DNA of 64,000 bases from Eubacteriaceae bacterium ES3 (GTDB lineage Bacteria > Bacillota > Clostridia > Eubacteriales > Eubacteriaceae), in assembly GCA_030586155.1 (NCBI GenBank), contig CP130741.1:490680-554679 (forward strand). The letters are read 5' to 3'. The notes below the pieces were generated by a model that worked only from the letters and a program-made list of their open reading frames with translations, was not told where the DNA came from and did not search any database. This document shows, in pieces, positions 3,701 through 33,310 of this stretch (the stretch's first letter is position 1; every line of letters begins with the position of its first letter). The position numbers and the translations under genes are program-made.

Positions 3701-4879
3701 GTGTTCAAACAGACATGGTTTAAGTTAAAAACAATGTGCTTATTTTTGGCTGCGATTCTTTTATTATGCTGTAGTTGTGGAATTCAATCTGATCAAAGTC
3801 AAATCGTTAATGAAAATGAAAGTGTCCAGGAAAATGAGTTTGCAAAGGAGATCGGGAATCCTGAAAAAAGCGAAGGACTCAGTTTTGTCGAAAAAATGGG
3901 TTCAGGATGGAATCTGGGTAATTCACTGGATGTTGCCCATACTGGGCTGTCAGGCGAAGATATATCGGGTATAGAAACATATTGGGGAAATCCGGTTACA
4001 ACCAGGGAAATGATAAGGGCTGTTCATGAAGCCGGTTTTTCTACACTTAGAGTGCCTGTCAGCTGGTCGGAGCATATGGATGCATCGGGGAATATTGATC
4101 AAGCATTTCTTAGTCGGGTGAAAGAAGTGGTTGACTATGGGATCGATGAAGGAATGTATGTGATCATAAATGTTCATCATGATGACTGGTTAATGCCGTC
4201 TATCGAAAATAAGGAGATAGCGAGTTCAACATTAACTATAGTCTGGCAACAGCTCGCGGAGTTTTTTAAGGATTATGATGACCATCTTTTATTCGAATCG
4301 ATGAATGAACCAAGACTGATTGGTACTGCTGATGAATGGACTGCAGGAACTGAATCGGCCCGACAAACTGTCAATGAGTTAAATGCACAATTTGTAAAAG
4401 TAATTCGTGAATCTGGAGGTGGTAATGAGTCTCGTTATCTCTTACTGCCTGGTTATTGTGCATCATTTCAAAGGGCAGCATTAGAGGCAATATCATTGCC
4501 TGATGACGAATATCTGATCGTATCGGTACATGCCTATATTCCATATGACTTTGCTTTGAATCAGGAAGGCAGAAATACTTGGAGTACCGGGAATCCCGAA
4601 GATACCAACGACATCGATGAGCTGTTTGAAAATCTTAAGGAGCTTTTTCTGGAACAGGAAATTCCGGTAGTTATTACAGAATTTGGCGCGCTGGATAAAG
4701 ATAATCTTGAAGCAAGACTTGTCTGGTTAAATTATTTTAAAAACAAAGCAGATCAAAATAATGTTGAGTTAATATGGTGGGATAATGGTGGAAATGCGGA
4801 ACAGAATAATTTTCGGATTTTAAATCGGAATAATTTGAGTTTTGATTTCCCGGAAATTCGTGATATATTGGTTAAATAG
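3701..4879 (+). CDS. Glycoside hydrolase family 5 (endoglucanase-like) lipoprotein
   Basis: Predicted cell-surface glycosidase of 392 residues cleaving beta-1,4-linked glucans or a related beta-glycan. A GTG start at 3701 is preferred: AGAAGGAGG (3682-3690) lies 10 nt upstream, whereas the in-frame ATG at 3662 has no ribosome binding site. The start is followed by a lipoprotein signal ending in a Cys-rich lipobox (LLCCSC). GH5 landmarks are present: the GWNLGNSLD strand, RVPVSW, NVHHDDW, the acid/base glutamate E203 in MNEP, and the nucleophile E327 in ITEFGA. Between signal and catalytic domain is an acidic, Gln/Asn-rich linker of about 40 residues. It is a single-gene unit between the importer and recQ with no other carbohydrate genes nearby. 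Substrate is inferred from family only. Confidence 0.9.
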   Translation: MFKQTWFKLKTMCLFLAAILLLCCSCGIQSDQSQIVNENESVQENEFAKEIGNPEKSEGLSFVEKMGSGWNLGNSLDVAHTGLSGEDISGIETYWGNPVTTREMIRAVHEAGFSTLRVPVSWSEHMDASGNIDQAFLSRVKEVVDYGIDEGMYVIINVHHDDWLMPSIENKEIASSTLTIVWQQLAEFFKDYDDHLLFESMNEPRLIGTADEWTAGTESARQTVNELNAQFVKVIRESGGGNESRYLLLPGYCASFQRAALEAISLPDDEYLIVSVHAYIPYDFALNQEGRNTWSTGNPEDTNDIDELFENLKELFLEQEIPVVITEFGALDKDNLEARLVWLNYFKNKADQNNVELIWWDNGGNAEQNNFRILNRNNLSFDFPEIRDILVK

Positions 4880-4915
4880 GCGAAAATTCTGAAGTATTAT
4901 GGAAAGAAGGCAATA

Positions 4916-7123
4916 ATGACCCTCGAAAAAAATCTAAGCAAATATTTTGGCTATCAGACCTTTAAAGTAGGACAGGAAAAAATAGTCAGAGCGGTAGTTA
5001 ATGGCCAGGATGTTTTGGGCATAATGCCAACAGGTGGCGGGAAATCGCTATGTTATCAGCTGCCTGCGGTGACGCTTGAAGGCCTTACAATTGTAATTTC
5101 ACCACTGATATCTTTGATGAAGGATCAGGTTGACGCTCTGATAGAGATGGGTATTTCAGCAACATTTTTAAACAGTAGTCTTGACCAGTCTACTTATTTG
5201 CGCCGATTAGAGGGGGTTCGAAAAAGTCAGTACAAATTATTGTATATTGCGCCCGAAAGGCTTAATGATCCGGAGTTTTTGCAGCTTGTCGAAAAGACTT
5301 CAATTGTGTTATTAGCTGTAGATGAGGCCCACTGCATCAGCCAGTGGGGCCATGATTTCAGACCTAGTTATCGCGATATACCCGGCTTTATTAAAAAAAT
5401 ATCTCCCCGACCGGTGGTAGCAGCTTATACGGCTACAGCGACCCAAAAGGTGACAGAAGAGATCAAAAAGTTATTAGAACTTGAAAATCCGGTGGAATCA
5501 ATTATTGGATTCGATCGGCCAAATCTTTTATATAGGGTAGTAAAAACAGGTGATAAGTTATCATTTATCGAAACAACGATTCAGGAATTTCCCAATCAGT
5601 CCGGGATTATCTATTGTGCCACCCGCAAAGCCGTTGAAAGTGTTACTGAGAAGCTTAAACAGATGAAAATTTCTGTGGCTGCATATCATGGTGGCATGAG
5701 TGCGGAAAATCGGGCTAAGAGTCAGCAGGCGTTTATCAATGATGAAATTGATGTAATGGTGGCAACGAATGCCTTTGGGATGGGAATTAATAAACCTGAT
5801 GTCCGTTTTATTATTCATTATAATATGCCCCAGAATATGGAGGCCTATTATCAGGAGGCTGGTCGCGGCGGCCGAGATGGAGAAATTTGCCATTGTACGA
5901 TATTGTATTCGCCATCAGATATTGTCAGGCAGAAGCAGTTAATTGGTCTTAATAACACATCACCCGAACGTGAAAAGATTCTTTTTGAAAACCTGCAGTA
6001 TCTGGTAGACTACTGCCATACTGATGAATGTTTGAGAAGAAAAATTCTTGAGTATTTTGGTGAAAATGCCGATTATGAAAAATGTGGTCACTGCGGGAAT
6101 TGTTTGGATCAGTCTGAGTCGCTTGATATTACAATAGAAGCTCAGAAGGTAATGTCATGTATCTATCGGATGAACAAACGTTTTGGGCTTAATATGGTGA
6201 TTGCGGTTCTTCGCGGATCAAAAAACAAAAGGGTGTTGGATTTAGGATTTGAATCCCTTTCAACTTATGGAATCATGAAAGAAAGTCGACCCGAATACCT
6301 GCGGGAAATTATTATGACCCTGGTGGCTAAAGGATATATTATGATTACAGCAGATGATTATCCTGTTCTTAAACTGACTAATAACGCTCGCCGTGTATTG
6401 AAAGGGGAAGAACAGATTTTTCTTAAAAAGCAGCTGATAGTCACTTCAAGTTCTTCTAACCGCAAACAAACTGAAAAAAACAGGAATACTGCAGTCTCAG
6501 AAGATTATGACAATAAATTGTTTGAAAATTTGAGAAGCCTCAGATCAGAGATTGCCAGAGAAAAAGGACTGCCCCCTTATGTTATTTTTCCGGATTCCAG
6601 CTTAAAAGAAATGGCCGCTTATTTTCCGGTGGATCAGGCAGATTTTTTATTAATCAATGGAGCTGGACAAAAACGCTTTGAGACTTATGGCGATTTATTT
6701 ATTAAAATAATAAAAGACTACACTAATGACCACTCAGTCAAAGCCCGTGTCAGACCTGAACCGGTTGAACAAAGATCAGAAGCTGAACAGGATACTAAAA
6801 TTAAGGGGACGCAGGTTAAAAAAAGATCGTCAAATATTATCAGTTTTGAACTGTTTAAAGAAGGTAGATCTATTCCTGAAATTGCAAAAGAACGGGGCTA
6901 CACAGAAACGACGATTCTTGGTCATCTCTGCCGTTGTGCGGATGAAGGGGAGTGTGTCGACTGGTCTGGGTTGGTAGAAAATGCGCGGGAAGTTAAAGTT
7001 TTGGATATCATTAAAGAGGTCGGACTGGATGGCCTAAAGAGCATTAAGGAAGCTTTGCCAGCAGATTTTTCGTACGATGAGATAAAAGTGGTAATATATA
7101 AAAATGGTTTGCAAAAAAAATGA
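4916..7123 (+). CDS. recQ: ATP-dependent DNA helicase RecQ
   Basis: A 735-residue 3'-5' DNA helicase for recombination repair. Motifs: Walker A PTGGGKS (38-44), motif II DEAH (136-139) running into the RecQ-specific aromatic-rich loop CISQWGHDFRPSY, motif IV-VI elements including ATNAFGMGINKPDVR and QEAGRGGRDG. The RecQ-Ct zinc site is complete (C372, C390, C393, C396), followed by a winged-helix region. An HRDC domain lies at about residues 535-610. A further C-terminal helix-turn-helix-like domain (about 640-735, SIPEIAKERGYTETTILGHL) is the extension seen in many Firmicutes RecQ proteins. The ribosome binding site AAAGAAGG lies 6-7 nt before the ATG. The stop codon lies within the inverted repeat that terminates the facing gene. 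Confidence 0.97.
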   Translation: MTLEKNLSKYFGYQTFKVGQEKIVRAVVNGQDVLGIMPTGGGKSLCYQLPAVTLEGLTIVISPLISLMKDQVDALIEMGISATFLNSSLDQSTYLRRLEGVRKSQYKLLYIAPERLNDPEFLQLVEKTSIVLLAVDEAHCISQWGHDFRPSYRDIPGFIKKISPRPVVAAYTATATQKVTEEIKKLLELENPVESIIGFDRPNLLYRVVKTGDKLSFIETTIQEFPNQSGIIYCATRKAVESVTEKLKQMKISVAAYHGGMSAENRAKSQQAFINDEIDVMVATNAFGMGINKPDVRFIIHYNMPQNMEAYYQEAGRGGRDGEICHCTILYSPSDIVRQKQLIGLNNTSPEREKILFENLQYLVDYCHTDECLRRKILEYFGENADYEKCGHCGNCLDQSESLDITIEAQKVMSCIYRMNKRFGLNMVIAVLRGSKNKRVLDLGFESLSTYGIMKESRPEYLREIIMTLVAKGYIMITADDYPVLKLTNNARRVLKGEEQIFLKKQLIVTSSSSNRKQTEKNRNTAVSEDYDNKLFENLRSLRSEIAREKGLPPYVIFPDSSLKEMAAYFPVDQADFLLINGAGQKRFETYGDLFIKIIKDYTNDHSVKARVRPEPVEQRSEAEQDTKIKGTQVKKRSSNIISFELFKEGRSIPEIAKERGYTETTILGHLCRCADEGECVDWSGLVENAREVKVLDIIKEVGLDGLKSIKEALPADFSYDEIKVVIYKNGLQKK

Positions 7124-7160
7124 CAAAAACACCGTTGATAGAGAACGATGCTTTTGTCAT
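7113..7160 (-). terminator. Intrinsic terminator for the minus-strand FlxA-like gene
   Basis: ATGACAAAA (7120-7128) pairs with TTTTGTCAT (7152-7160). An inner CGTT/AACG pair lies inside a symmetrical internal loop. Read on the minus strand the stem is followed by eight T residues (complement of 7113-7120), so it terminates the minus-strand gene. It overlaps the recQ stop codon. Confidence 0.7.
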
Positions 7161-7188
7161 GGAAGAAAGGTTTAAATAAATTAGAATT

Positions 7189-7524
7189 TTAAGCATAAAC
7201 ATCCAGAATGTTTTCAACTGGTTTTGTCTGGGTGCTGGTGGTTTGTTCTGTAGTTGCAGTAGTGGCCTGTTGCTCGCTGGCAGTTTTTTGTGCCTGTTGT
7301 TTTTCAATCTGAGCAATTCTTGATTCCAGCTGCTGTATCTGAGACTGAACCAGTTCGACCTGGGTTTGTTTGGTTTCAGTATCACCGTTACCTGAGTTGA
7401 TTTTGGTGATTTTCTTCTGGAGTATCCTGATCTGGTTCTCCAGATTTTTAATAGTGGTTGTAGTGGTGGTCGTTGTCGTTGTGCTGGAGCTTGATGACGT
7501 TGACGAAATCGCTGAAATGTTCAT
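7189..7524 (-). CDS. FlxA-like coiled-coil protein with a poly-threonine tract
   Basis: A 111-residue protein of unknown function. The ATG at 7524 is preferred because GGAGGATACC precedes it; the frame runs on upstream without another good start. N-terminal residues about 6-25 are almost only Ser and Thr, including a run of ten threonines written mostly with ACC, ACT and ACA codons. A heptad-like segment follows (KNLENQIRILQKKI ... VELVQSQIQQLESRIAQIEKQQ, about 27-75), then a Gln/Thr/Ala-rich tail. This plan resembles the FlxA-like family, a name given to short coiled-coil proteins with no established role. No signal peptide or membrane segment. The run of ACN codons is prone to slippage and may vary between strains. 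Confidence 0.75.
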   Translation of the reverse strand: MNISAISSTSSSSSTTTTTTTTTTIKNLENQIRILQKKITKINSGNGDTETKQTQVELVQSQIQQLESRIAQIEKQQAQKTASEQQATTATTEQTTSTQTKPVENILDVYA

Positions 7525-23713: not shown

Positions 23714-24544
23714 ATGAATATATCGCAAATAGAGTATTTCCTGGAAACAGCGAAATGTCTCAATATCTCCAAAGCGGCTCAAAACCTGTTTATTACTCAG
23801 CCAACCTTAGGCAGACAAATTTCAAAAATTGAAACTGAACTCAATACACTGTTATTTATCAGAAGTAATAAGGGCCTTACATTAACGCCAGCCGGAATTG
23901 TTTTATATGAAGAATTTTCGAAAATTATTGATGATTACGGTCAGGCGGTCAAAAAGGCCACGTTAGCCAGTCAGTGCATTGCTGGAGTACTAAATATTGG
24001 AATAGTGGATGGGCTGGAAATTAAAAGTTTTATCCCCCAAATGGTCACTTATTTTGAAATTAATCATCCCAACATTGAGATTATTTTTCACCGAAAAAGT
24101 TTTTTCGCTCTGCTGGAAGATTTAAATAATGGCAGGCTGGATGCTTCCATTTCTTTTGATTTTCATCTCAAAGAATATCCAGAACTTAAAACAATTTGGA
24201 TTAAAAAAAATATTCCAGCTTTTATTGTGCCAATAAAAAACCCTTTGTCGAAAAAGGAAAAGCTTACTTTTTCAGATTTTAAAGATGAACCGCTGGCTAT
24301 TGTCAGAAAAGAAGAATGTCCCAGTGGTGTGGAACTGGTGATTAACTCATTTCTTAAAAATGCGGGCTTTTATCCGCGATTGCATTTTCTTGAGTCGATG
24401 GCGGATGTGCTTTTATGGGTCGAGTCGGGAATGCGATGCGCTCTTTTGAACACAGATATGGTTTTAAAACATTCAGATGTAGTGAAAATATATCCCTTTG
24501 AACTAGAAGAACGTTTTAGTGATATTAAAGGACGGAAATCATAA
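23714..24544 (+). CDS. LysR-family transcriptional regulator
   Basis: A 276-residue regulator. The N-terminal winged helix is clear (QIEYFLETAKCLNISKAAQ ... TQPTLGRQISKIE, residues 5-45), followed by the linker helix and a periplasmic-binding-like effector domain (about 85-270). It is slightly shorter than the usual 290-310 residues. AGAAGG lies about 8 nt upstream of the ATG. It precedes the second methyltransferase by 131 bp on the same strand, and is the likely regulator of that gene, in parallel with the PucR-type regulator beside the first methyltransferase. Confidence 0.92.
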   Translation: MNISQIEYFLETAKCLNISKAAQNLFITQPTLGRQISKIETELNTLLFIRSNKGLTLTPAGIVLYEEFSKIIDDYGQAVKKATLASQCIAGVLNIGIVDGLEIKSFIPQMVTYFEINHPNIEIIFHRKSFFALLEDLNNGRLDASISFDFHLKEYPELKTIWIKKNIPAFIVPIKNPLSKKEKLTFSDFKDEPLAIVRKEECPSGVELVINSFLKNAGFYPRLHFLESMADVLLWVESGMRCALLNTDMVLKHSDVVKIYPFELEERFSDIKGRKS

Positions 24545-24675
24545 TTTTGCTTTAAACCTGCTAAAAAATTATTATGCTCAAAAGGCATGATGACTAACAG
24601 CTATAAGCATTTTACAGCCTCTATGTAATCGTTATAATGATATTAAAATCGATTATTCTAAGGAGGCTTTTATTT

Positions 24676-25665
24676 ATGGAAGAAAGACAGTTATCGCCCA
24701 GGGAGAACGCCTTGATCGCCTATAAACATGGCGTTCCTGCTTATATCCCGACACTTTTTACTGACATAACAATGATACAGGCAAATCCGTCAATGGAACG
24801 ATATTGTGGTAGTACATCAGGTGTGGACGGATTTGGCGTTGAATGGACTTATGTAGAAAACGCTCATGCGCCGATGACAACACCTGGAAAAATACTCTTC
24901 GATGAGATTTCAGACTGGCGAGAATACGTGAATTTTCCTGACCTGGAAAAAATAGATTGGGAAAAACAGGCGGATATTGATGTTCATACTGACTTTATGG
25001 CCTTGGTTGCAGGCGCTGGGCTTGTTCCCATGGCTGATGGGAAAAGTGCTTATGATGAAGATAAGTTGGTTTTATGCATGGTCATTAATGGTCCGTTTGA
25101 GCGACTTCATGCACTGATGGGGTTTGAAAATGCCCTGATTGCTTTGGCGACTGAGCCTGAAGAGTGTTACGAATACTTTAAAGCAGTGGCTGACTGGAAA
25201 ATAGAATACTTTAAAAAAATTGCCAAGTATTATAAAGTTGATGTAATTAACGGTCATGATGACTATGGGTCCAAAGATCGGATGTTTATGTCACCGGACA
25301 CATGGCGAAAATTAATTAAACCTCATCTCAAGCGGATGGTGGAAGCCTGTCATGAATCAGGTGTCTTATATCAGCATCATTCTTGTGGACATATCGAGCC
25401 AATTTTAGAGGATCTGGTTGAAATTGGGGTTGATGCAATTGATACATTACAAGGTGGAAGCAATAAAAATTTAGTTGCCCTAAAAAAAGAATTTGGCGAT
25501 CGAATAACATTTTGTGGTGGATTTGATAATCAGGGAGTTCTTGAGCTTCCCGATGTTACTGAAGATGAGATCAAAGCAGAGTATCGTAGGGTTGTCGATG
25601 GTCTCGCCCCAGCCGGTAGTTTTGTAGTATTTCCCATCACCATTGGCTTTGATTATGTAGTGTAA
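24676..25665 (+). CDS. Uroporphyrinogen decarboxylase-fold methyltransferase, C-terminus cut off by a transposon
   Basis: The frame gives 329 residues of a URO-D-superfamily methyltransferase. The start is ATG 24676 with AAGGAGG upstream. N-terminal SPRENALIAYKHG and the His-x-Cys motif (HHSCGH) match the paralogue at 19895, and the SGVDGFGVEW region is shared. The gene is interrupted: codon 328 (GTA) is the last native one, and the final Val and TAA stop come from the transposon end that begins at 25661. The lost tail is still present beyond the transposon (28686-28775), so the ancestral protein had about 356 residues. Whether the shortened product works is open, since the missing 28 residues should be C-terminal helices. 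Confidence 0.85.
   Translation: MEERQLSPRENALIAYKHGVPAYIPTLFTDITMIQANPSMERYCGSTSGVDGFGVEWTYVENAHAPMTTPGKILFDEISDWREYVNFPDLEKIDWEKQADIDVHTDFMALVAGAGLVPMADGKSAYDEDKLVLCMVINGPFERLHALMGFENALIALATEPEECYEYFKAVADWKIEYFKKIAKYYKVDVINGHDDYGSKDRMFMSPDTWRKLIKPHLKRMVEACHESGVLYQHHSCGHIEPILEDLVEIGVDAIDTLQGGSNKNLVALKKEFGDRITFCGGFDNQGVLELPDVTEDEIKAEYRRVVDGLAPAGSFVVFPITIGFDYVV
25655..25660. repeat. Left target-site duplication (ATGTAG)
   Basis: ATGTAG directly before the TGT terminus of the three-gene transposon. The same six bases follow its ACA terminus at 28684-28689. Joining the two flanks restores an open reading frame in the interrupted methyltransferase gene. Confidence 0.85.
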
Positions 25666-25824
25666 ATTTTCACATTATTTCGGACTGAATTAGTCACAAT
25701 AAATCGGATGAAAAAGGAAGAAATAATGCGAAAATAATGGCTTATTAAGAATATAAATCTCGTTTTTAATCACATAATCACGTTCCATTTTTCCAGAAAA
25801 AAAGGGAGATAACGCTGTCAGGCG

Positions 25825-26625
25825 TTAAATCCCGGCTTCTGCCGAAGCGGCAAAAACAATCTCTTCATCGATGAGATCAGTTTGCTTTTGAAAGGCGAGA
25901 ATCAGACATTGGGTAACGAGATTGCCGACTAATCGAGGATAACCGCCAGTCGAAGACGAAATAGCTGCATAAGCATTCTCGTTGATCAGATTTCGTGAAA
26001 CACCGGCATGTTTAAAGCGGTGTTTGATATAGTCTCTGACCTCATCCGGTGTCAGTGGTGAAAAATGAAAACGGGTCACCAGCCGCTGATCCAGCGAACG
26101 GTTCTGGTTTAAAGCCAGGCGGTTGGCCAGCGTTGGTAAACCGGTGAGTATCAGAATAAAAGGATTGCGTTTGTCCATGTCAAAGTTAAAAATGATGCTC
26201 AGATCGTGAAGAAACTGAGCTGAAGCCGACTGCATCTCATCGAGGATAAAGACAGGCGTGATGCGGCGCTTATCATAAAGATCGATAATCGCGTTCTGAA
26301 TCTGAAAGAACAGCTCCACTTTGCGGAATTTCGGCTGTTCCCCGAGCGAAAAGGCCAGACCCCGGTAAAAGTCCATAGTTGTTCCGGAAGACATCGGGAA
26401 ATACATGACCTTATATAAGGACGGATTCAAATTGTCGGCAAAGACCCGCAGGGTCGATGTTTTACCAACCCCGGGGTCACCGGTAATCAGACCAAAACCT
26501 TTGGTGGTTTTGAGATAATCCAGTCGGGCCAGAACTTCCCTGTAAGCTTCGGACTGAAAGAGCATCGATGAATCAATGCTTTTGTCAAAGGGTGCCTGCC
26601 GGAACCCGAAAAATGATTTATACAT
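25825..26625 (-). CDS. AAA+ ATPase of the transposon (ExeA/TniB/TnsC-like)
   Basis: A 266-residue P-loop ATPase. Walker A is GDPGVGKTS (about residues 50-58), Walker B is PVFILDEMQ (about 125-133), and the C-terminal half has the lid typical of ExeA/TniB proteins, with R residues in RSLDQRLVTRFHF. The N-terminal YKSFFGFRQAPFDKSID matches ExeA-type proteins linked to transposases. ATG 26625 is preferred over GTG 26634. It overlaps the end of the transposase gene by 8 nt, so the two are translationally coupled. Predicted role: target selection or activation of the transposase, as TnsC, TniB and IstB do. Function here is inferred from architecture only. Confidence 0.88.
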   Translation of the reverse strand: MYKSFFGFRQAPFDKSIDSSMLFQSEAYREVLARLDYLKTTKGFGLITGDPGVGKTSTLRVFADNLNPSLYKVMYFPMSSGTTMDFYRGLAFSLGEQPKFRKVELFFQIQNAIIDLYDKRRITPVFILDEMQSASAQFLHDLSIIFNFDMDKRNPFILILTGLPTLANRLALNQNRSLDQRLVTRFHFSPLTPDEVRDYIKHRFKHAGVSRNLINENAYAAISSSTGGYPRLVGNLVTQCLILAFQKQTDLIDEEIVFAASAEAGI

Positions 26626-27877
26626 GAGGAACACCGCCTAACGTGCTGTAGCTGATAACATTGTTATTGCGTTTGGCAATGGCATTGTCCGCCATGATGA
26701 CTTTTTTGCAGGTAAGAATCCGGACACTGTTTTCATAAAGATAGATCTCATCAGGGCATTCATTGGGATAGCGGATATCCACGCTCTTGCCGATAAACAT
26801 TGGCGAAGCTTCGAAAAGGGCGTTGTGCAGCGAAATGGTGGCATCCGACTTGACCTTTCTGGTTGCCCGGATCAGAAAGGCTTCATCAATGATCCGGGGA
26901 TCAGAGAAATGTTTGATTCGGTCGCTCCCCCGCATATAAAAGACCATCGGTGCTTCATTGAGACTTGAATGAAGCTTATGATGATAATCCCGGGCCAGCC
27001 AGGCCTCAAAGCGCTGGTTGAGGACATCCAGATCCATCAGGTCGGAATCCGTCAAAAGCGGATAAAAACGACTGCGGACGGTTTTGAAAAAGCGCTCGAT
27101 TTTGCCTTTGCTTTTGGGATCGTAAGGTCTGGTATTGACCAGTGCAATGCCCAGAGTGGCACAGGAAGTATTCAGTTGGTGAGAACGGAAAATCTTGCCA
27201 TTATCAGCATAAAGCATGGTGGGCTTGCCACAGGTAAGTAAAGCAGATTTAAGGACATGAAGGAGATCTTCATTCTTTTCAGCCAGCATGAACTGAGCCC
27301 CGGTAATTCGCCGGGAAGCATCATCGATAAAAGCGATCAGATAGGTTTTGCGCTTTTTACCGTTAAGAGTCAGATATGGGCCGTGGGAAACATCGGTCTG
27401 CCACAGGGTGTTGATATCAACATGGGCAAAACGGCGGCGGTCAGCCGTATCCGTCTGGGATGGCTTTAACAGCTGATGTTTTTTCAGCAGCCGATACACT
27501 GTGGAATAGGAACAGTCAGAGCTGGTGAAGTGCCCTTCATGAATGAGCCACTCATGGAACAACTTCACCGATAAATGGATGTTTTCCGTTCGTAACGTAA
27601 GGAGCAGTTTAGTCGATTCCGCTGATAAAGCCCGGGAAGAACCCTTGTCTGTCCGAACCTTGGGCTTGAGCGCATCAAAACCATGACGCCGGTACAGACG
27701 GAGCCATTCCAGCAGGGTTTTGCGGTTGTAGGTGCGCGTGCCATAATGCGGAACATCATGGGTTTTGGCACTGATCTCATCCAGATAAGCGGCGTGGGAC
27801 GAGACGGTATCCGTAAGCAATGGCGCAATCAGGCCATAGCGAAATAAAGCAATCAGTTCTTTGTCTTTTTCAGTCAT
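26618..27877 (-). CDS. DDE (rve-type) transposase
   Basis: A 419-residue transposase with a retroviral-integrase fold. Catalytic residues D162 (WQTDVSH), D225 (LYADNGKIF) and E261 (SKGKIERFF) have the classic D-D-35-E spacing. Before them lie two helix-turn-helix regions (residues about 5-65, TYNRKTLLEWLRLYRRHG, and about 120-140, STVYRLLKKHQ). After them is a Mu/TnsB-like C-terminal beta domain. The ATG at 27877 follows CGGAGG 10 nt upstream; an open frame runs on to 28111 but overlaps the next gene. It looks intact, so the element may still be active. It belongs near the Tn552/IS481 side of the rve superfamily. Confidence 0.92.
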   Translation of the reverse strand: MTEKDKELIALFRYGLIAPLLTDTVSSHAAYLDEISAKTHDVPHYGTRTYNRKTLLEWLRLYRRHGFDALKPKVRTDKGSSRALSAESTKLLLTLRTENIHLSVKLFHEWLIHEGHFTSSDCSYSTVYRLLKKHQLLKPSQTDTADRRRFAHVDINTLWQTDVSHGPYLTLNGKKRKTYLIAFIDDASRRITGAQFMLAEKNEDLLHVLKSALLTCGKPTMLYADNGKIFRSHQLNTSCATLGIALVNTRPYDPKSKGKIERFFKTVRSRFYPLLTDSDLMDLDVLNQRFEAWLARDYHHKLHSSLNEAPMVFYMRGSDRIKHFSDPRIIDEAFLIRATRKVKSDATISLHNALFEASPMFIGKSVDIRYPNECPDEIYLYENSVRILTCKKVIMADNAIAKRNNNVISYSTLGGVPHV

Positions 27878-28025
27878 TGTAAAAAAACCTCCGTTTTTAA
27901 AGAATTGAGGTTTTAAGGATCCATAAAACTCAGTAAATAGAGCATAACGGATCAATGGATAAAAGGCAAAGCAAAAGCTCTGTGGGCTAAATAGTTCTTC
28001 AAAAAAATGCGGAAGGATGGTACAA

Positions 28026-28562
28026 TTAATGTGCCATAAATCCTTTCTTAAAATGATCGTGATATCTTTTGCCGAAGATGGGGGGCTTGCCCACCGAGTA
28101 GACCATTTCAAGAAGCTTTATGGCTTTTTTATGCCAAAAATCAGGAAAGTCGATTAAAGGATCATGGCAGATGCGAAAAAATTCAATCAGCCGGTTCAGA
28201 CAAAGTAAAAAACGCCGGGTGATAAAGCGACGATGCTGATGCGCTAAAGTATTGGCATAATGAGCCCCGTTAAAGAAGGCCCAAAGCAGTTCCAGCAGAA
28301 ATGGAAGCGCCAGCTGAAATCCTGGATGACAGAAAGAAGGCAGGACACTGACTGTCTTACCGCAATGAATACAGTAATGACGTTGGACCGGAATGGAGAA
28401 GACATCCTCATACCAGATCACATGCCGGTGATAGATACCATGAAGATGAAGTCGATGGCGGGTGTAACAATGTGGACAGCTGTCAATACGAACTCTTTCA
28501 GTGGTGTAGAATTCGGTGATATAATCCAGCGGGTGGTCAGAAAAGTGTTCCAGATGAACCAT
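28026..28562 (-). CDS. DUF6431-like CxxC/His-rich transposon protein
   Basis: A 178-residue protein with an N-terminal zinc-ribbon-like module, C29-x2-C32 and C64-x2-C67, in a His/Arg-rich setting. This is followed by a helical domain with basic patches (HQHRRFITRRF). It matches my memory of the DUF6431 family, which is often encoded next to a DDE transposase and an ExeA-type ATPase; that link should be checked. AAGGAAG lies about 9 nt before the ATG. It is the first gene of the three in the transcription order of the element. A role in end binding, target choice or regulation is possible; none is established. Confidence 0.75.
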   Translation of the reverse strand: MVHLEHFSDHPLDYITEFYTTERVRIDSCPHCYTRHRLHLHGIYHRHVIWYEDVFSIPVQRHYCIHCGKTVSVLPSFCHPGFQLALPFLLELLWAFFNGAHYANTLAHQHRRFITRRFLLCLNRLIEFFRICHDPLIDFPDFWHKKAIKLLEMVYSVGKPPIFGKRYHDHFKKGFMAH

Positions 28563-28683
28563 GGTTTGTGCTTCCTTAAAGTGACTAATGATTAATCATT
28601 ATACCATAATTGAAAAGCCAGGTTTGCCGGAATAATTTGATTAGTTCAGGGCTCTTTTGACATTTATAATTTGCTAATTAACA

Positions 28684-28689
28684 ATGTAG
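28684..28689. repeat. Right target-site duplication (ATGTAG)
   Basis: Second copy of ATGTAG, directly after the ACA terminus of the transposon. It is in frame with the displaced tail of the methyltransferase gene. Confidence 0.85.
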
Positions 28690-28775
28690 GCGCATTGCTG
28701 GAGGAACATTTTCAGTATGGCATGGGCTTTTATGCCATGAAGGGAGAGCAGCCGGATATTGGGTTATTAATGTAG
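28686..28775 (+). pseudogene. Displaced 3' end of the interrupted methyltransferase gene
   Basis: Reading from GTA at 28686 gives 29 codons, VGALLEEHFQYGMGFYAM and so on, then TAG at 28773-28775. The first Val is shared with the last native codon on the other side through the ATGTAG duplication. Removing the transposon and one copy of the duplication gives ...GFDYV-GALLEEHF... with no frame break. A C-terminal 'L-x-E-H-x-x-Y' helix is usual in URO-D-fold methyltransferases. There is no start codon or ribosome binding site, so the fragment is not expected to be made as a peptide. Confidence 0.85.
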
Positions 28776-28873: not shown

Positions 28874-30226
28874 GTCAAGTCCAAAATAGTGTGTAAAAAC
28901 CTCGGTGGGTTTAACTAGGCTGCTGATGAAACAGCAGCCGTCTGTTCTTTTAAAAATTCATAGTAATCCTGCATATCCAGATATTTTCTGCCGGAAGACC
29001 ATTTTTCATCCTGTTCCATAAGCAGCGCACCCAGTAAACGGATAACCGATTTTTCGTTGGGATAAATGCGGATCACGCGATCACGACGCCTGATTTCCTC
29101 GTTGAGTCGTTCGATACTGTTGGTTGTGCGCAGTCTTTTCCGGTATTTCTCAGGAAGACTCATTACAGCCATCACATCATCAAAACCTTCTTCGAGTATT
29201 TCAATCGCTTTTGGTGCTTTGGATTCAAAATGTCTCAGTGTGTCTTTCAGCAGGTTGCGGGCATCTTCAATATTTACTGCATTGTAGATGCGTTTCAGAT
29301 AGGATTTCAATTCGGACTGCTGATTTTTGGGCGTTTTATCCAGTACATTTCTTGAGAAATGTGTCTGGCATCTCTGCCAGGTGGATCCCTGAAAATGTTT
29401 TTTAATCGCATTTACAAGTCCTTTGTGATTATCGGATACTATCAGATCAACGGCTGTCAGACCACGCTCTTTGAGATTTTGAAAAAAATCTCCCCAGCTT
29501 GATTCTGTTTCGGTATCATTCAGCTGAAAACCAATTACTTCACGATTGCCATTTTCGTTGACTGCGGTTGCTACCAATAGACCTTTTGACCGGACTCTGC
29601 TGTCTTCGCGAACTTTGAGATATAAAGCATCCACAATTATAAATGGATAATGCTTTTCAAGCGTTCGGTTACGAAAACCGTTTACTACCGGATCCAGATT
29701 TTCACACAGCTTTGAAACTGTTGATTTTGAAAAGCTCTGGCCACAAAGTTCTTCTGTAATGTTTTCGATTTTGCGGGTTGAAACCCCATTAATGACCATT
29801 TCGATCATTGCCAGCATCAGAGCCTGCTCGCTCCGCTGGTAGCGCTGAAACATCGTCGTGCTGAATTCGCCGTTACGATGACGAGGGATCCGCAGGGTGA
29901 TACCACCGATTCGCGTTGTTAATTCACGATCCCTAAAACCGTTACGGTAAGCTGTCCGATCCTCGCATCGCTCATAGCGTTCAGCACCAAGTTGCTCAGC
30001 CGATTGCGCTACAAGCACCTGGTTAAGAATTGTTTCCAGAAGCTTTGAAAAAGCCTCATCCCGGGAATCTTTTGTAAAAAGTCCGTGCAAAAGTTCTGTG
30101 TCCAGTGTAATATTTAATTGAGCCATTTGTTCATCTCCTCGATTAGGTATTGGGTGGTACTTTTATTTTAACCGAGGTTTGAGCTCTTGGCTCATTTTCT
30201 TTTTACACCATTATACGGACTTTATC
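28874..30226 (-). mobile_element. IS256-family insertion sequence
   Basis: About 1.35 kb between two copies of TAATGTTCAA. The ends are imperfect inverted repeats: left, AAGTCC...GTGTAAAAA; right (read inwards), AAGTCC...GTGTAAAAA, agreeing at 17 of 23 positions. A second inverted pair AAACCTCGGT lies further in, near 28897 on the left and near 30168 on the right. One intact transposase gene fills the element. It lies about 90 bp beyond the interrupted methyltransferase gene. Confidence 0.88.
28915..30126 (-). CDS. IS256-family (Mutator-type) transposase
   Basis: A complete 403-residue transposase. The catalytic triad is D166 (IIVDALYLK), D232 (IVSDNHKG) and E339 (NSIERLNEEIRRR), with the C-x2-H motif CQTHFSRN between the last two, as expected for Mutator-type enzymes. 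The N-terminal domain has the RNGFRDRELTTRIG stretch. The ribosome binding site GAGGAGATG lies 7-8 nt before the ATG. No frameshift, so the element can be active. Confidence 0.97.
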   Translation of the reverse strand: MAQLNITLDTELLHGLFTKDSRDEAFSKLLETILNQVLVAQSAEQLGAERYERCEDRTAYRNGFRDRELTTRIGGITLRIPRHRNGEFSTTMFQRYQRSEQALMLAMIEMVINGVSTRKIENITEELCGQSFSKSTVSKLCENLDPVVNGFRNRTLEKHYPFIIVDALYLKVREDSRVRSKGLLVATAVNENGNREVIGFQLNDTETESSWGDFFQNLKERGLTAVDLIVSDNHKGLVNAIKKHFQGSTWQRCQTHFSRNVLDKTPKNQQSELKSYLKRIYNAVNIEDARNLLKDTLRHFESKAPKAIEILEEGFDDVMAVMSLPEKYRKRLRTTNSIERLNEEIRRRDRVIRIYPNEKSVIRLLGALLMEQDEKWSSGRKYLDMQDYYEFLKEQTAAVSSAA

Positions 30227-30824: not shown

Positions 30825-30937
30825 ACATAGAAATGCTACAAGATTATAAGAATAGAAAATGTTAAATTTAACTGATTTTAATTTCTAATTCAGGGTAGAA
30901 TTTTAATAAGACAAATTTTCAGAAAGGAATGATTAAT

Positions 30938-33310
30938 ATGAACGATCATAAAGATCCTCAAAAGATGGAAGAACACCAGGAAATGGAGTCCGATCAACAT
31001 AAAAATCAAGGTTCGATGGCAGGTCATGACCATAATACTCAAATGACTGAACATGAAGGAAAAAACCACTACAGGGAAATGGAAAATCACGACCAGCATA
31101 TAAATATGGAAGAACACAACCACCATAATGATATGAATGAACATACTCATCACCAAGAGGCTATGACTCATGACCAACACGAAAATATGGAGAGTCACAC
31201 TGAACATACTGAAATGAAAAAACATGATCGGCACGCTATAATGAATGGGCATGAGCATCACAAGGGAACGACGACACATGACTCTCACGAAGATATGGGT
31301 GAAATGGATATGCATAACCATCATAGCGATATGGGCGGTCATGATCATCATGGGGGAATGGAGCACGTTGATCATCATAAAATGATGGCCATGGACTTCA
31401 AAAAACGTTTTTATGTTTCATTTGTGTTCATGATTCCGGTGCTGTTACTCTCACCGATGATCCAGGGGTTTATGGGTGTTAGTTGGCGATTTGCCGGTGA
31501 TCAGTATATCGTTTCTGTTCTGGCTACCTTTTTATATTTTTATGGCGGTAAGCCTTTCTTAACAGGAGCAATCGATGAGATAAAGAAAAAATCTCCGGCT
31601 ATGATGACTTTGGTGGCCATGTCGATTACAGTATCCTATGTATATAGCTTAATGACAGTATTTTTTATTGAAGGCAATGATTTTTTCTGGGAACTGGCAA
31701 CCCTGATTGTTATTATGTTATTGGGGCATTGGATTGAGATGAAATCGGTGATTGGTGCTTCCAAAGCCCTTGATGAACTGGCAAAGCTGATGCCGGAAAC
31801 GGCCCATCGAATTAAAAATGCGGATGAACTGGAAGAAGTTAAAGTTCACGAACTGGAAGAAGGAGATTTTGTCCTGGTTAAGCCTGGTGAAAAAATACCG
31901 ATCGACGGTAAGGTGTTCGAAGGAACTTCCTATGTTAATGAATCGATGCTGACGGGTGAATCGGTACCAGTGGAAAAAAAGGCAGATGATGAGGTAGTTG
32001 GTGGAGCCATCAATGCGGATGGCATATTAAAGGTTGAGGTATTACGTACTGGTTCGGAGATGTTTTTATCTCAAATGATTGAACTGGTCAAAGATGCACA
32101 GAAAAACAAATCAAAAACCGAACGTCTGGCCGATCAGGCTGCAAAATGGCTTTTTTATATTGCCACAACAGTAGGAATTATAACTTTTATGGCCTGGATC
32201 TTTGTAACCGCTAATCTTAATTTTGCCATAACCCGAGCCGTTACGGTTATTGTCATTTCCTGTCCCCATGCGTTGGGCCTGGCTATTCCTTTAGTAACGG
32301 CGGTAACAACATCTATTGCAGCCCAGCATGGTTTACTGATCAGAAATCGCGCTGCCTTTGAGAATGCCCGCAAGATGACTGCCATTGTTTTTGATAAAAC
32401 AGGGACTCTAACCGAAGGGGAATTTGAAGTGACTGATTTGGTCAGTGAAAAGGATTCTGATGATAAACTTTTAACTATTGCAGCATCATTAGAAATAAAT
32501 TCCGAACACCCAATTGCTGAGGGGATTGTAAAAGAGGCCAAAACAAGAGGGCTCAAACTTATGTCGGTTGTAAATTATATAAATATCACGGGCGAGGGTT
32601 TAAGCGCTGAAATTGACAAACAAGAAGTGAAAATTGTCAGTCCCGGCTTTATGAAAAAGGCCCAAATCTCTTATGATGAAGCGAAATTTCAGAATTTAGC
32701 TGATGACGGAAAGACTGTTGTTTTTGTACTACTCGACAAAGTGCTGTTGGGAATGATTGCCCTATCCGATAAAATTAAAGAGGAATCAGAAGCGGCGATC
32801 AATGGTTTACATGCTATGGGAATCGAAACAGTACTTTTAACCGGTGACAATCAGACGGTAGCTAATCGGGTTGGGCAAGCTTTGAAAATGGAGCAGATTA
32901 TAGCCGAGGTATTACCGGAAGATAAAGTCAATCAGGTCTCAATGTTAATCGAGCAGGGTAAGACAGTGGCAATGACGGGTGATGGTGTAAATGATGCCCC
33001 GGCTCTGGCTAAAGCTGATCTAGGGATCGCTATCGGAGCTGGAACGGATGTAGCAATTGAAGCCGCGGATGTTATTCTGGTCAAAAGCAATCCCAATGAC
33101 GTGGTTTCACTAATTAGTTTATCGAAAAAGACTTATCAGAAAATGATCCAAAATCTGGTATGGGCGACTGCCTATAATTTGATCACTCTGCCATTGGCGG
33201 CCGGGATTCTTTATAACCAGGGGATTCTAGTCAGCCCGGCAGTTGGTGCGCTTCTAATGTCTCTGAGTACAGTGATCGTGGCAATTAATGCCAGATTAAT
33301 AAAGTTTTAA
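30938..33310 (+). CDS. copB: Copper-transporting P1B-type ATPase (CopB type) with His-rich N-terminus
   Basis: A 790-residue heavy-metal P-type ATPase. ATG 30938 is chosen (AGAAAGGA 9 nt upstream). The first 148 residues are a metal-binding tail with 35 histidines and many Met and acidic residues, in repeats such as HDHH, HTHH and HNHH. Core motifs: TGES, the CPH motif starting at C442 (which marks the CopB/P1B-3 branch instead of CPC), the phosphorylated aspartate D486 in DKTGT, SEHP, and [10 protein letters not shown]. Eight membrane helices are expected. It exports copper, or possibly silver, from the cytoplasm. The genes downstream (DUF2680, SHOCT, two-component system) suit copper control. 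Confidence 0.93.

Follow-up and report, generated by a model that had tools for sequence, protein, structure and literature searches.

The 64,000-nucleotide window analysed here, from Eubacteriaceae bacterium ES3, contains a gene of the UroD superfamily of corrinoid-dependent methyltransferases that is divided in two by a transposon (Table 1). The reading frame begins with an ATG and is preceded by a ribosome-binding site and by a promoter-like TTTACA-16-TATAAT at 24611-24638, which matches the consensus at 11 of 12 positions. Its native part closes with ...GFDYV, the last codon being GTA at 25657-25659, and this is followed by a foreign Val codon, GTG at 25660-25662, and by the stop codon TAA at 25663-25665, which is supplied by the transposon. 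The truncated product is thus 329 residues long, with 328 native residues and the one foreign Val. An earlier note had described this end as GFDYV, Val, and stop, and the reading is borne out base by base; in the Val codon TG comes from the transposon, and the first base, G, belongs to the target.

The same note had reported the six bases ATGTAG on both sides of the transposon, and they are seen there. A small precision applies here: the GTA at 28686-28688 is part of the second target copy, and new methyltransferase sequence runs from 28690 on. When the transposon and one ATGTAG are removed, 24676-25660 joined to 28690-28775 gives 1071 nt, that is, 356 codons and a TAG with no internal stop, which reproduces the in-frame reconstruction proposed earlier; set against this joined frame, the 329-residue product lacks the 28 C-terminal residues, again as had been stated. 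Downstream of the broken gene, an IS256-family element (28877-30222) lies about 100 bp past its stop codon, and the open reading frame at 30929-33310 reads as a P1B ATPase-like protein of the copper type, the N-terminal part of which is very long and rich in His and Met.

Table 1. Features at the disrupted methyltransferase locus (positions in the window).
Feature	Position	Strand	Basis or remark
LysR-type regulator gene, directly upstream of the methyltransferase	23714..24544	+	also adjoins the intact G012 orthologue
Ribosome-binding site AAGGAGG	24660..24666	+	sequence
Interrupted methyltransferase gene (UroD superfamily, corrinoid-dependent), 5' part	24676..25665	+	sequence; PF01208 URO-D 2.9e-17; MtaA/CmuA 2.3e-16
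ATGTAG target-site duplication, left copy	25655..25660		sequence
IS481-related transposon, 3,023 bp	25661..28683		TGT...ACA ends; five identical genomic copies
ExeA-type AAA ATPase of the transposon	25825..26634	-	AAA_22 5.9e-23; TIGR03015 139.8 bits, below cut-off
DDE/rve transposase (HTH, rve, Mu-transpos_C)	26618..27880	-	rve 9e-14; Mu-transpos_C 1.5e-7
DUF6431-like protein, third transposon gene	28026..28562	-	PF20020 1.1e-4, below gathering cut-off
ATGTAG target-site duplication, right copy	28684..28689		sequence
Severed methyltransferase 3' end, last 28 codons GALLEEHFQYGMGFYAMKGEQPDIGLLM and TAG	28690..28775	+	sequence; tail found in orthologues

The methyltransferase, its orthologues and the lost segment

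The truncated product scores above the cut-off of the Pfam URO-D family (63.2 bits against 23.9), and its match to the MtaA/CmuA family is weak, at 60 bits under a 235-bit cut-off. In three-part corrinoid methyltransferase systems, methyltransferase I (MTI) is the substrate-specific first component. MTIs of the UroD superfamily include MtvB, OdmB, VdmB, MtoB, and CdmB (PMC13222342). The broken gene belongs to the same URO-D fold family as these enzymes but differs from them in being disrupted and in having no adjoining corrinoid-protein gene, nor one for methyltransferase II, in the window. We infer that it encoded a UroD-superfamily MTI, the substrate of which would be a methoxylated aromatic compound or another methyl donor.

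Roughly two dozen loci in the genome itself match the gene, and the best intact paralogue is 36% identical. An uninterrupted orthologue of 356 residues is present in a genome of the same genus, Acetobacterium (G012, contig C50), with 84.5% amino acid identity over residues 1-355, a natural empty site (GACTATGTAGGT), the same tail, and the same LysR gene upstream, into which the DNA homology reaches back. In G012 the corrinoid protein and methyltransferase II are encoded about 3.5 kb off, beside another MTI. A homologue in G001 (contig C12), 64% identical and with the tail AFLEEHFQYGMNFY, is part of a cluster in the B-C-A style: downstream of it come the genes for a B12-binding (corrinoid) protein and for a pterin-binding methyltransferase. 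Further homologues with 35-40% identity also extend beyond the insertion point; closer relatives in other genera of the family were not found. Since the G012 and G001 proteins do not end at GFDYV and do hold the tail, a natural protein end at GFDYV is ruled out, and neither of the two conditions that the earlier note had named as refuting applies. The note had also proposed to look for strains with an empty site; at the level of the genus, such a site is seen in the G012 orthologue.

It could be argued that decay or disuse of the gene preceded the insertion, and that the transposon marks a neutral site instead of being the cause of loss. The region does collect insertions, as judged from the nearby IS256-family element; however, the 356-codon frame holds neither a stop nor a shift, and the codon differences from G012 in the body of the gene are mostly synonymous (143, against 47 amino-acid-changing), which makes prior decay quite improbable.

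The CdmB protein is a TIM-barrel dimer (PMC13222342). A single-sequence search of the PDB matched 4AY7 alone and did not reach the C-terminus, and a profile was needed to find CdmB. Built from nine members of the family, this profile matches CdmB (PDB code: 9RUI, 1.7e-8) as far as residue 428 of 429 and covers the lost segment. The 28 missing residues probably form the helix that closes the barrel at the C-terminus, and with this helix lost the enzyme would most likely be inactive, misfolded, or unstable. The inactivity that the earlier note had considered is plausible, since the lost segment corresponds to the C-terminus of the solved CdmB structure, and on this alignment we regard a non-functional or unstable product, with loss of activity, as likely. 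An AlphaFold prediction of the truncated enzyme from a two-row alignment reached a pLDDT of 40 and was discarded.

Conversely, the 329-residue protein might still work as a methyltransferase, in which case the tail would be dispensable and the insertion near neutral. The promoter-like site, the ribosome-binding site, and the remaining open reading frame are unharmed, and conservation is lowest in the tail: compared with G012, 10 of its 28 codons are identical, against 138 of 328 in the body, and it carries 9 amino acid changes in 28. The truncated protein may thus retain partial function. All inspected homologues nevertheless go on past the insertion point as a helix-like segment that closes with a motif of the ...YG..FY type or its equivalent, and the solved CdmB retains the equivalent segment up to its last residue. 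A working truncated enzyme therefore appears unlikely, and loss of function is the preferred reading.

Structure and copies of the transposon

The transposon starts at 25661 with TGTAAATTTTCACATTAT and closes at 28683 with ...AATTTGCTAATTAACA, and its imperfect inverted ends, TGTAAATTTTCACATTAT and TGTTAATTAGCAAATTAT, match at 14 of 18 positions. The transposase starts at the ATG at 27880-27878 or at a codon close by. The DUF6431-like protein has a zinc-ribbon-like CxxC...CxxC motif, in which CPxC and C residues are conserved; its AlphaFold model (pLDDT 49) was discarded. At the right end (28657-28685), an outward TTGACA stands 17 nt from an AACAAT, the last two bases of which come from the target ATGTAG. 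This may be a hybrid outward promoter, although the signal is weak, with 13 promoter-like sites found against 8.8 expected.

Five copies of the 3,023-bp element, 100% identical and with identical ends, are present in the single-contig genome. Exact 6-bp direct repeats flank four of them (CTACAT, GATAAG, ACTATC, and ATGTAG), and the remaining copy (L002, G000:C1:2136959-2139981) has no target duplication and is flanked by GATTAG and GTATAT, probably as a result of secondary deletion or recombination adjoining it. A chance repeat of a hexamer is ruled out, since the same segment occurs five times at 100% identity, and 6-bp repeats accompany four of the five copies here as well as four of the five in the congener G017. 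The earlier claim of an insertion into a formerly intact gene is upheld by this target duplication, by the multi-copy nature of the transposon, and by the intact orthologue, which is equally long and has a natural empty site.

The duplications ATGTAG and CTACAT are one hexamer on opposite strands. There is a hint of a weak target preference: of the nine hexamers duplicated by copies in this genome and in congeners (L001, L003-L005, L067, L074, L078, L084, and L083/L075), eight contain TA, against 29% of all hexamers of the window (post hoc binomial test, P of about 4e-4). One identical copy (L095, G000:C1:1075000-1088000, element at about 4359-7381) has landed in a CRISPR spacer, where its duplication is ACTATC. 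The array has 79 exact repeats, 44 before and 35 after the insertion; it is split, and transcription from the leader may no longer reach its distal half.

An insertion that is programmed or reversible, with excision restoring the gene, would fit the ancestral frame, which can be restored exactly on paper. Against it, the identical transposon sits at four other unrelated sites, one of them the CRISPR array, no excision-type recombinase is among the transposon genes, and with DDE elements of this kind the 6-bp duplication stays behind. Programmed excision is rejected, and its probability appears extremely low.

Classification and relatives of the transposon

TGT...ACA ends are a feature of the IS481 family. 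The ends and the 6-bp duplication of this transposon resemble those of the IS481 family and the IS1202 group, and the best NCBIfam match of its transposase is IS481, with a score of 194 bits, which is under the curated family cut-off of 224. Six bp is the majority length of target duplications in the IS481 family (PMC10045372). Unlike the single-gene IS481 insertion sequences, however, this transposon holds three genes over 3,023 bp, and it adds a Mu-transpos_C domain, an AAA ATPase, and the DUF6431-like protein. Transposons of the TniA/TniB type (Tn5053/Tn552 group) and IS21 elements (IstA/IstB) pair an rve and Mu_C transposase with an AAA ATPase, and the present element shares this pairing. 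The transposon ATPase has no Pfam match to TniB or IstB and matches ExeA/AAA_22 instead; none of the transposon genes matches TniQ, the third being the DUF6431-like gene; and the IS21 match of the transposase reaches only 57 bits against a cut-off of 160.

The closest relatives are in the genus Acetobacterium. The A. woodii-like congener G017 carries five full copies with about 88% identity, four of which have 6-bp duplications; three split open reading frames (two tyrosine integrases and one transposase-like) that rejoin in frame without the element and one duplication. The copies in A. wieringae and A. dehalogenans are broken at contig ends, and G015 has one contig-end pair with a matching 6-bp duplication. 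Copies in G017, A. wieringae, and A. dehalogenans share the ends and gene set at 87-91% DNA identity, but their insertion sites differ and none is in the methyltransferase gene. The set of DUF6431-like protein, transposase, and ExeA-like ATPase is found in several Clostridia and one Bacillus, being complete in Bacillus renqingensis as well as in most class-level relatives sampled. Relatives on Geobacillus plasmids, annotated as IS481 family, are 46% identical. A literature search did not find a description of this element in Acetobacterium, and for DUF6431 it yielded one paper, in which the domain lies beside a DDE transposase in Ruminococcus gnavus. By analogy with TniB and TniQ, one could speculate that such elements form an undescribed, widespread class related to IS481, in which the ATPase and the zinc-ribbon DUF6431 protein help the transposase to choose targets, but this is a doubtful proposal at present.

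Course and meaning of the insertion

We are highly confident in the overall explanation that a transposon insertion disrupted an intact UroD-superfamily MTI gene and left an enzyme that is most likely non-functional. The proposed course is as follows. The IS481-related three-gene transposon would have entered by DDE strand transfer at a target cut staggered by 6 bp, and ATGTAG was duplicated inside the intact MTI gene. The last 28 residues were thereby exchanged for one Val and a stop. The part removed is most likely the C-terminal helix that closes the barrel, and its loss would most likely render the enzyme non-functional or unstable. The earlier note had called the insertion recent, which is supported by the five identical copies and by the severed tail without stop or frameshift; since the own copies are identical and congener copies carry 6-bp duplications, the event is best seen as a recent and ordinary transposition.

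The case is an ordinary insertional disruption for which the supporting evidence is unusually complete. What is somewhat unusual is that the transposon consists of three genes, and the roles of its accessory proteins are putative. In Acetobacterium this transposon is active at present or was so recently, and it has disrupted several genes within the genus. For the organism, an acetogen with roughly two dozen loci for methyltransferases of the UroD type, the insertion represents a clean natural knock-out at one of them; the loss of one methyl substrate is predicted, and the uninterrupted G012 orthologue serves for comparison.
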